Assembly (NCBI RefSeq): GCF_003605635.1
Contig: NZ_QMDW01000026.1
Span: forward strand, 1-35,938
Length of the DNA: 35,938 bases
Source: Halonotius pteroides
Lineage (GTDB): Archaea > Halobacteriota > Halobacteria > Halobacteriales > Haloferacaceae
Direction of reading: 5' to 3'
A model generated the notes under the pieces. That model was not told where the DNA came from. It ran no database searches and saw only the letters and a program-made list of their open reading frames with translations. Positions 12,664 through 15,328 of the stretch are shown piece by piece; the first letter of the stretch is position 1; each line of letters starts with the position of its first letter. The translations under genes were made by a program, and so were the position numbers.

Positions 12664-13407
12664 TCAGTCGCTTTGGATCCGCGGGGCGAGCATGTAGGTA
12701 ACTTGGCCGAGGGCTTCGGCAAACTCATAGTGGAGTTTGACGGGGAACTCCTCGCCGAGCTCGGTCGTGACCTCGGCTGCCTTCGGGATCGCCTTGTTCA
12801 TATCCTTCAGATAGTCGAGTGAGAACAGGGAGTCGGCCGCGCCGGCGGTGAGATCGATCAGATCGTCGCTGTCGAGTTTGAGATCCACGTCGTCGGTGTC
12901 GCCCTCGGCTTCGATATAAAACGCTTCATCGTCGGGATCGACGCGAAGCGCGATGTGGTCGCTGACCATATCGGCGGCGGTGATCCCGCGGCTGAGTTGG
13001 CTGCCCTCCAAGACGATCTCCGCCGAGAGATCGAGATCCGGGATGTCGGGTTCCTGACGGATCGAATCGGGGTCGATCAGCGCAAGGGTATACGAGAGGC
13101 CGTCGATCTGGATGTGGAGCTTGCGGGTTTCTTCGTCGAGTTCGAGATGAATGAGGTCGCCGCTGTTTGCCATCCCGGCGATATCTTCGAGTCGACCGAG
13201 GTTGACGCCGATGACGCCGCCGTCGGCCTCGTAGGACTCAAAGGCGGCTGCCGCCAGCGAGAGGTCGACCATCCCGACGTTGGCAGGGTCGACGGCGCGG
13301 ATGGCGAACTCCGCTTCGTTCAGCCGGATCTTACACTCGTCAACCAACACGCTCACCGAGTCAAGCGCGTCCTTGAGCGTGTCAGCACTCACGATGGCCT
13401 TGAACAT
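12664..13407 (-). CDS. pcn: DNA polymerase sliding clamp PCNA
   Basis: A 247-residue PCNA, the trimeric ring that tethers replicative polymerases, FEN1, ligase and other partners to DNA. It begins [21 protein letters not shown] and has the expected interdomain connecting region ([28 protein letters not shown]) and the C-terminal YMLAPRIQ strand. It is very acidic, as in other haloarchaea. A TATA-like TTTTTAT (complement of 13430-13436) is centred 26 bases before the ATG, so the message is probably leaderless. That promoter sequence is duplicated exactly 388 bases upstream. Confidence 0.96.
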
Positions 13408-13429: not shown

Positions 13430-13456
13430 ATAAAAAGACACCCGGTTTACACACCG
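13430..13456 (-). promoter_or_regulatory. pcn promoter, first copy of a 27-bp direct repeat
   Basis: These 27 bases are identical to 13818-13844. On the minus strand they contain an upstream half-palindrome around CGGTGTGTAAACCGGG and end in the TATA-like TTTTTAT, 26 bases from the pcn start codon. The palindromic part may bind a regulator common to both copies. Confidence 0.7.
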
Positions 13457-13601
13457 TTTCGCCGACATCAGGCTGTTTGTAGGTTCTATGGCAAATTACA
13501 TCAATGAGGAGTGTCTACTAGTAGACGGAGACACCAAGTCTCCATGGTATACAGGCCAGTGGAACATCCGAGAGGATGATAGAATCAGCGGCCTGAACCC
13601 C

Positions 13602-13643
13602 AAAAAAAGGAGACCAGTCGACAGCGAGTCACTCGCCGTCGAC
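13602..13643 (-). terminator. Hairpin plus T tract ending the small minus-strand unit
   Basis: Bases 13617-13643 form a near-perfect palindrome (arms GTCGAC and GCGAGT against ACTCGC and GTCGAC). On the minus strand it is followed by TGGTCTCC and a run of seven T (complement of 13602-13608). The stop codon of the 42-residue frame lies in the hairpin tip. This looks like a strong factor-independent terminator. Confidence 0.65.
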
Positions 13644-13757
13644 AGCCGACGTAACAGCGATCATCAGCACGACGGTTCCGACCGGCCTACCAAACAGGAC
13701 GAGAACTGTCCCGCAGATGATCGCTGCAATTTGCGGTTTTTCGGAGATGCTACTCAC
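13629..13757 (-). CDS. Possible 42-residue membrane protein
   Basis: A GTG-initiated frame of 42 residues (VSSISEKPQIAAIICG…) with a hydrophobic stretch of about 25 residues (IAAIICGTVLVLF, then VGTVVLMIAVTSAV) broken by GRP, and a short acidic end (VDGE). The start lies inside a perfect 8-base anti-16S match GGAGGTGA (complement of 13754-13761) and overlaps the stop of a 15-codon upstream frame. Translation may therefore depend on termination-reinitiation. A promoter copied from pcn lies upstream and a hairpin terminator downstream. I recognise no family. A small RNA is the main alternative. Confidence 0.4.
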   Translation of the reverse strand: MSSISEKPQIAAIICGTVLVLFGRPVGTVVLMIAVTSAVDGE

Positions 13758-13797
13758 CTCCCAGGTCAGCTTGTTTTGTGACGCGACCCAACGTCAT
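13750..13797 (-). CDS. Possible 15-codon leaderless upstream frame
   Basis: ATG at 13797 lies about 24 bases after the TATA-like box at 13818-13824, the same geometry as pcn, so it should sit at the 5' end of the transcript. The frame reads MTLGRVTKQADLGGE and stops at TAG (13750-13752), overlapping the GTG of the 42-residue frame. It contains the GGAGGTGA anti-16S match near its end. It could be a regulatory upstream peptide, or the true N-terminus of one protein separated by a frameshift. Confidence 0.3.
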   Translation of the reverse strand: MTLGRVTKQADLGGE

Positions 13798-13817
13798 TAT
13801 TTTGCAGCGAAGCGTCA

Positions 13818-13844
13818 ATAAAAAGACACCCGGTTTACACACCG
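13818..13844 (-). promoter_or_regulatory. Second copy of the pcn promoter repeat
   Basis: Exactly identical to 13430-13456 (27 of 27 bases). Here the palindrome is complete: CCCGGT-TTACAC-ACCGGG (13829-13846). On the minus strand the TATA-like TTTTTAT lies about 24 bases before the ATG at 13797. It should drive the small unit that ends at the hairpin near 13602. Confidence 0.65.
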
Positions 13845-13873: not shown

Positions 13874-15247
13874 CTACACTAACGGTTCGACGAGGTCGAC
13901 GCCCTCGCCTAAGAGCGTCTGGAGTCGTTCGTCGCTGCCAGCCTCGCCGTAGACCCGCAGCTTCGGCTCGGTTCCGCTCGGCCGGATCAGCAGCCACGAG
14001 CCGTCCTCAAGGAGGAGTTTGAAGCCGTCGAGGGTGACGGTGTTGGCAACGGCTGAGCCGGCGACCGACTCGGGGATGTGGTCTTCGAGGTCGTTGAGGA
14101 CGCGTTCCTTCTCGCTGTCGGGGCAGTCGACACTGACCTTGCTGGCGTGAATCTCGCCGTGTTCGTCGAGCAGGGCGTCGACGCGGTCGTCAAGCGGTTT
14201 GGCGGCGGTGACCGCGCCGGCCAGCAGCGCCATCAGGACGCCGTCTTTCTCGCGGATGTGGCCGCGGATCGAGAAGCCGCCCGACTCCTCGCCGCCGATC
14301 AGCGCGTCTGAGTCACCCATCGCTTTGCCGACCCATTTGAATCCGACCGGTACCTCGACGACCTCCTCGCCGTTGGCCTCGGCGACACGATCGATGAGGA
14401 AGGTCGTCGACACCGAGCGGACGGCGGGGCCGGAATCCGATTCGAGGAGGTAGTCGTAGACCGCGGCGAAAAACAGATTCTCGTCGAGATAGCCACGCTC
14501 AGGGGTGGTGATCGCGATGCGGTCGGCGTCGCCGTCGTTGGCGATCCCAAGATCGGCGTCGTGCTCCTCGACCGCCTCGGCCAGCGACCGGAGGTTCTCG
14601 GGGCTGGGTTCGGGTTCATCGCCGCCGAAGTCGGGATCCTGGGTGCAGCGGCGGGTGATGACCTCCGCGCCCGCCGACTCAAGGAGGGCGTCGGTGACGC
14701 CGCGGCCGCTGCCGTGGAGGGCGTCGTAGACGATGGTGAGATCCGAGAGATCCGCGCCGACGAGATCGCTCGCGTGGTCGGCGTGGTCAGCGATAGGGTC
14801 GATCTCGGTGATCTCGCCGTGTTCCGCCTCAGGGAGGAGGTCGGGTTCGGCGAGGTTGTCGACGATCCTCTCGGTGCGTTCGGGGAGGGCGGGTGCGCCG
14901 TCTTCGGGAATGAACTTGACGCCGTTGTACTCCGGTGGATTGTGCGAGGCCGTGACCATCAGCGCACACGAGAGCCCGCGGTTGACGATCGCGTAGGCGA
15001 TCACCGGTGTCGGGCAGTCGCGTTCCGGCAGCAGCACGTCGAAACCGTGGCCAGCTATGATCTCAGCGAGGCTCTCGGCAAAGCCCGGCGAGGTTTCGCG
15101 GGCATCGTAGCCGATGATGACGGGATCGGTGTACCCCTCCTCCTCAAGATAGGTTGCGACCGCTTCGCCAACGATCCGGACACGGTCGTCGGTGAAGACA
15201 TCGAGGGTAGCACGCCACCCATCAGTGCCGAAGGCAATCTTGTCCAT
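13874..15247 (-). CDS. pgm: Phosphoglucomutase/phosphomannomutase
   Basis: A 457-residue alpha-D-phosphohexomutase. It starts with MDKIAFGTDGWRA, typical of archaeal/bacterial phosphoglucomutases of this subgroup. The phosphoserine is S101 in MVTASHNPPEYNGVKF, the Mg2+ loop is NDGDADRIAIT, the sugar-binding loop is GGEESGGFS, and the C-terminal phosphate loop is IRPSGTEPKLRVYG. The GEESGG loop points to glucose/mannose-phosphate rather than glucosamine-phosphate. An in-frame ATG at 15289 exists upstream, but the family start is at 15247. It and the GlmM-type gene flank pcn. Confidence 0.88.
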   Translation of the reverse strand: MDKIAFGTDGWRATLDVFTDDRVRIVGEAVATYLEEEGYTDPVIIGYDARETSPGFAESLAEIIAGHGFDVLLPERDCPTPVIAYAIVNRGLSCALMVTASHNPPEYNGVKFIPEDGAPALPERTERIVDNLAEPDLLPEAEHGEITEIDPIADHADHASDLVGADLSDLTIVYDALHGSGRGVTDALLESAGAEVITRRCTQDPDFGGDEPEPSPENLRSLAEAVEEHDADLGIANDGDADRIAITTPERGYLDENLFFAAVYDYLLESDSGPAVRSVSTTFLIDRVAEANGEEVVEVPVGFKWVGKAMGDSDALIGGEESGGFSIRGHIREKDGVLMALLAGAVTAAKPLDDRVDALLDEHGEIHASKVSVDCPDSEKERVLNDLEDHIPESVAGSAVANTVTLDGFKLLLEDGSWLLIRPSGTEPKLRVYGEAGSDERLQTLLGEGVDLVEPLV

Positions 15248-15328
15248 ACCATAGCTGCTGTGTGGATCGTCAAAAAGATAGGAGGTCACCAGCGTCCAAC
15301 CACCGGCTGTATCGACATAGGTTCAACC

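Follow-up and report, generated by a model that had tools for sequence, protein, structure and literature searches.

Why does the promoter of pcn, the gene for the sliding clamp (PCNA), stand twice on the same strand of Halonotius pteroides DNA? We addressed this question in a window of 35,938 nucleotides, the whole stretch analysed, for which an earlier note had described a duplication of the pcn promoter that placed a second short transcription unit under the same control. Our analysis suggests that a non-autonomous small-gene unit probably inserted into the pcn promoter, that its target was duplicated, and that the unit is transcribed from the resulting copy and translated from an AUC codon.

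An insertion with a duplicated flank

The exact duplication, TATA box included, is real. Positions 13430-13456 and 13818-13844 are identical at 27 of 27 bases, 388 bp apart from start to start, and the 20-bp core CGGTGTGTAAACCGGGTGTC has exact matches across the 3.01-Mb genome only in these two copies, the runner-up site carrying three mismatches. When the two flanks were shuffled as a chance control, the longest match was at most 9. A TATA-like TTTTTAT lies inside each copy, at 13430-13436 and 13818-13824. The locus is laid out as follows, with G003 denoting the nearest relative and G002, G004 and G016 further relatives.

12664-13407, minus strand: pcn, sliding clamp (PCNA)
13430-13456, minus strand: pcn-side repeat copy, the pcn core promoter; its downstream flank matches G003 and G002
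13457-13817, minus strand: insert, a small-gene unit of 361 bp, absent in G003, G002, G004 and G016; 52% G+C against 61% for the window
13818-13844, minus strand: pgm-side repeat copy, directly upstream of the inserted unit; its upstream flank matches that of the single copy in G003
13874-15289, minus strand: pgm, a phosphoglucomutase/phosphomannomutase-type gene on the other side of the insert

In G003, whose pcn protein is 98% identical, about 25 bp separate the pgm stop codon from a single repeat copy, after which comes pcn. Aligned with this genome, the window shows one interruption only, a clean 388-bp gap: on the pgm side the flank enters the copy at 13844-13818, and on the pcn side the flank leaves the copy at 13456-13430. 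The clean gap and the single copy in G003 together show that 361 bp were inserted and that 27 bp are present twice. The pcn site is likewise without the insert in G002, G004 and G016, and the foreign base composition of the inserted DNA supports insertion. The event is thus not a promoter duplication as such, as had been proposed, but an insertion with a duplicated flank, and the repeat is most simply read as a target duplication. The earlier note had let its claim hang on close relatives sharing the arrangement; they do not, and their empty site marks a recent insertion while leaving the feature real.

The break point falls immediately after TTTTTAT, so that pcn and the insert each have the same TATA box and the same upstream bases. 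The unit would accordingly have entered between the TATA box of pcn and its transcription start, and duplication of the target would have let pcn keep its promoter while the incoming gene gained an identical one. By an alternative route, the unit would recombine at the core promoter as a promoter-unit cassette. Two further elements of the original description stood in part. An ATG on the minus strand does follow each repeat at a similar distance (22 nt beyond the pcn-side copy, 20 nt beyond the second), but the second ATG opens a non-conserved 15-codon uORF and not the small protein. The upstream palindrome is present in both copies, but it is held in common with G003 only and is not retained in G002 and G004, for which reason we rejected it as a regulatory site.

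We infer that a transposition-like event made the duplication. The unit contains no transposase, and a search for terminal inverted repeats at 13457/13817 gave none that was convincing; by eye there is only TTCGCYG at offset positions. The haloarchaeal target-site duplications given in the literature consulted measure 5-11 bp; 27 bp is long for such a duplication, which counts against a transposition-type origin. Insertion through an RNA is unsupported, as the first base of the insert lies some 20 nt upstream of where the transcript should begin and its other end is not at a T-run.

Elsewhere in the genome, a second PCNA-like gene (G000:C71:107352-108086) is 48% identical to the pcn of the window, and several relatives also have two. 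At 495-926 and 1112-1588 of the window, on the minus strand, lie adjacent genes with translations that by eye appear ribbon-helix-helix-like.

The small gene, its apparent start codon and its folded mRNA

The minus-strand product of the insert is ISEKPQIAAIICGTVLVLFGRPVGTVVLMIAVTSAVDGE. Its gene and the surrounding elements are listed below.

13629-13748, minus strand: hydrophobic ORF of 39 codons plus stop, with the apparent start ATC at 13748-13746, from homologues and a comparison of start positions
13755-13761, minus strand: Shine-Dalgarno sequence GGAGGTG, 6 nt before the ATC; its GGAGGT can pair with ATCTCC at 13743-13748
13779-13796, minus strand: leader hairpin TGACG...CGTCA; counterpart in relatives GACGCC...GGCGTC
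13655-13726, minus strand: coding-sequence hairpin with arms 13703-13726 and 13655-13678; covaries in relatives
13602-13608, minus strand: T-run after the stop codon, a probable terminator, read directly; T-rich sequence is similarly placed in several relatives
13527-13543, minus strand: hairpin GGAGAC...GTCTCC beyond the T-run; counterpart in relatives GGACAC...GTGTCC
13750-13797, minus strand: uORF of 15 codons at the ATG behind the second repeat copy

Coupling of the small gene to this uORF was rejected because the uORF is not conserved, and a plus-strand ORF of 97 aa (13488-13781), for which no family match was found, is taken as spurious.

The window has a strong Shine-Dalgarno sequence and no well-placed ATG, GTG or TTG; the in-frame GTG belongs to the Shine-Dalgarno sequence itself and was rejected as a start, since many members have it out of frame or behind a stop codon. 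We compared 28 members at the position that follows GGAGGTG or GGGGTG, mostly 4-7 nt downstream, and found ATC in 11, GTG in 5, ATA and CTC in 4 each, and ATT, CTG, ATG and AGT once each. This position is fixed by the GTG and ATG members that occur there; the AGT case (G353) may reflect a misalignment, and the exact start of the CTC group is less certain. Between the in-frame stop and the start position, six members (G171, G116, G432, G482, G277 and G334) have no canonical start codon. Close pairs differ at codon positions 1/2/3 by 5/4/18 (G432/G434), 3/4/15 (G434/G482) and 8/2/16 (G277/G334); an excess at the third position in these pairs, whose frames have no canonical start, indicates that the frames are under protein selection and are translated. 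Initiation at AUC and related codons is the best reading of these comparisons, with AUC the likely start codon in the cell. Gene finders restricted to ATG, GTG and TTG would miss most family members.

The mRNA is strongly folded, its coding sequence pairing with itself. Six aligned members have 85.7% of cells paired and 8 pairs changed on both sides, none of 500 shuffles being as good; when partners were slid as a control, pairing fell to 55% or less. Six of seven members fold more strongly than most of their synonymous permutations do, and the fold of the whole insert has a z of -5.8. A covariance model, R1, built from the six members matches 13635-13799 with 133 bits, the window copy being part of the building set; in a second haloarchaeal family it retrieved three members with the same layout, two of them weak. 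Codons 2-3 often read CCTCC or similar, which can pair with the Shine-Dalgarno sequence.

Such a fold might suggest that the RNA itself is the product and the open frame incidental, a reading with which the covariation, the z of the whole insert and the missing canonical start agree. We regard it as improbable, given the third-position excess in close pairs, the conserved position of the stop codon, the Shine-Dalgarno spacing of 4-7 nt and the ATG or GTG start in some members. In the reading that we favour, host gene and unit would both be transcribed, the latter from the duplicated promoter, whose copy is presumably active, as a strongly folded mRNA. Translation would be assisted by the Shine-Dalgarno sequence and begin at the non-canonical AUC, and the near-cognate start with the paired Shine-Dalgarno site would result in low peptide synthesis. 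The hydrophobic make-up of the peptide suggests that it acts in the membrane, where a toxin-like action is possible.

A patchy family and copied host promoters

Across 170 genomes of the host's own family, which includes Haloferax elongans and Halorubrum trapanicum, strong matches occur in six (G000, G057, G171, G145, G116 and G115) and one diverged member in G113, while the second haloarchaeal family yielded 23 matches among 125 genomes. The distribution is thus patchy across two haloarchaeal families. The genome search found no second copy of the insert, and there is one unit in G000 and one per genome in nearly all other carriers. Members are recognised by a leader hairpin, a GGAGGTG-type Shine-Dalgarno sequence, a start mostly 4-7 nt on and a covarying hairpin within a hydrophobic ORF of 37-50 codons, all of which the insert has. 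In the second family, similarity across unrelated sites extends from about 75 bp upstream of the start codon to about 250 bp downstream of it; sharp ends at unrelated sites imply a discrete unit of about 320 bp. The window insert begins 69 bp before the start codon.

Members of the two branches matched no relevant Pfam or NCBIfam profile, and Rfam covariance models at gathering score matched only tRNA in the window and nine other loci. No relative turned up when plasmids, phages and viral contigs were searched for the insert region, the 27-mer and the proteins, one viral pattern match being a chance site within an unrelated viral gene. In a literature search at title and abstract level, with subscription papers largely outside its coverage, we found no description of the unit.

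The members in G113 and G115 lie in provirus-like regions with integrase and tail-type families, and that of G434 adjoins an integrase. A tRNA gene is found within about 1.1 kb of the members in G057, G116, G145 and G482, and the G171 member adjoins a conserved intron-bearing-tRNA-like sequence that ARAGORN and Rfam leave uncalled. Around the other members we detected no clear duplication as direct repeats, the only candidate being a decayed 22-bp pair in G432 at a spacing of 390. Two side observations concern possible relatives. At L182-L185 (G396, G394, G414 and G446, second family), the small gene adjoins a pgm-type gene on its 5' rather than its 3' side, which may be coincidence. L073, L085 and L086 (G013, G390 and G229) have weaker candidates, small ORFs that start with ATG and contain a CGTVL.L.G-type core; they may be remote relatives or form a small-protein group of their own.

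Own-family members elsewhere have promoter-like sequence further upstream, as judged by eye, and the window insert has none, leaving the duplicated pcn promoter as the only evident one. Promoter copies also precede units at other sites. In G327 and G212, which share one insertion, CCGCGCGTAAAGGGTGGCTTTTTATGTCGAC stands directly upstream of the unit and is identical at 31/31 positions to the pcn promoter of G029, a genome of the same genus that served as reference in place of G327's own; the 3-kb locus around the unit contains no pcn gene. The unit of G432, also in the second family, has ACGCGACCGGTGGGCTTTTTCTGCCG in front of it, and 25 bp of this upstream sequence, CGCGACCGGTGGGCTTTTTCTGCCG, are the apparent promoter of a PCC-domain gene. 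This stretch recurs once in the G432 genome, and each of the six relatives compared has it a single time. Background exact matches in 850 kb of compared DNA were mostly 15-16 bp. With the window included, an exactly copied host core promoter thus precedes the unit at three independent insertions. In two of these the copy comes from pcn, and the window alone has the complete duplication at the gene of origin. Non-orthologous units in G434 and G334 (L170:1390-1408, minus strand; L175:1390-1408, plus strand) also share 19 bp of upstream sequence, CTCTCGACAGATTGTAGTA, perhaps another copied promoter.

The proposal that the second copy drives a short minus-strand unit from the clamp-gene promoter has therefore gained ground: a real, conserved unit lies directly downstream, and sharing of this promoter is supported by its recurrence in G327/G212, in the second family. 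Its replication-linked role has not, since other members sit behind other promoters and no special replication link is shown. Its association with the pcn promoter in both haloarchaeal families suggests that such a small mobile unit is able to borrow the promoter of a replication gene and leave it intact, which would be a simple route to growth-linked expression. More tentatively, and without favouring the idea, one may envisage a new haloarchaeal mobile unit of about 320-360 bp, the size of its transcript, that targets or captures host core promoters (pcn twice, independently), duplicates them or carries them along to serve as its own, and encodes a membrane peptide throttled by near-cognate starts (AUC, AUA, AUU, CUC and CUG) and a paired Shine-Dalgarno site.

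The repeat could also have arisen by homology, if a circle of the unit and one pcn-promoter copy had recombined with the chromosomal pcn promoter; the repeat would then be a recombination footprint rather than a target duplication. Promoter-unit pairs do exist away from the source gene in G327/G212 and G432, other members have proviral and integrase neighbours, and the decayed repeat of G432, with its spacing of 390, counts on the same side. This route is nevertheless unlikely, as the pcn promoter of this very lineage would have had to be captured beforehand, no such cassette was found elsewhere in the genome, and a 388-bp circle is very small. We think it very unlikely that the insert is ancestral and was lost in G003 by deletion between the 27-bp repeats. 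Repeat-mediated deletions have been reported in the haloarchaeon Haloquadratum (PMC3119063), and G002 has 8 bp in common with the pcn-side insert edge; yet the empty sites of G002, G004 and G016 would demand several losses, and the origin of the repeat would be left unexplained. The 8-bp match itself, CGGCGAAA at L003 just upstream of the G002 pcn promoter, could be chance or the relic of an older insertion and subsequent loss. An assembly artefact or contamination, with two sequences wrongly joined at a common 27-mer, is scarcely credible even for a draft assembly of 115 contigs with 3.9% estimated contamination, because the insert is a complete, single-copy member of a real family and two genomes from a different family likewise have a pcn-promoter copy at the unit.

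Comparison with known systems

Insertion of the unit with target duplication, the reading we prefer, recalls the haloarchaeal ISH2-type MITEs with an ORF, which are likewise short and transposase-free, carry one small ORF and are flanked by a target duplication (PMC3119063, PMC10264941). ISH2 itself is about 520 bp long, has termini related to ISH8 and makes a 10-bp duplication (PMC3119063, PMC10264941). The insert shares with such transposable elements the apparent target duplication and the empty site; it differs in having a 27-bp repeat, no terminal inverted repeat that we could find and one copy per genome instead of several, and in its conserved mRNA structure and copied host promoters.

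As for translation, the bacterial genes infC and pcnB start with AUU, and a near-cognate start behind a Shine-Dalgarno sequence goes with low or regulated translation. The likeness lies in this near-cognate start behind a Shine-Dalgarno sequence; here, in contrast, a whole family varies among AUC, AUA, AUU, CUC, CUG, GUG and AUG. A review of archaeal initiation lists no start codons other than AUG, GUG and UUG (PMC7531240). The family thus offers a natural test of archaeal translation start at AUC or AUA.

Haloarchaeal CreT RNA toxins, which are controlled by CRISPR-Cas and act through two consecutive rare codons in a mini-ORF, are also small RNAs with a strong Shine-Dalgarno sequence, a short ORF and stable hairpins (PMC8501985). 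The insert differs from them in encoding a conserved protein of 37-50 residues. Its ORF has no pair of consecutive rare AGA/AGG or AUA codons such as marks the CreT mini-ORF, which lies next to a CRISPR-like creA, and we detected neither an Rfam CRISPR match in the window nor cas genes in the region of it examined.

A further parallel is with the bacterial type I toxin genes of the Hok, TisB and Ldr type, which also encode a hydrophobic peptide of fewer than 50 residues in a strongly folded mRNA with a paired Shine-Dalgarno site and have a patchy, mobile-linked distribution. The unit has in common with them a small hydrophobic peptide encoded by a structured mRNA, and stands apart through its near-cognate starts and archaeal host. 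The family offers a lead towards archaeal small membrane proteins that resemble type I toxins.
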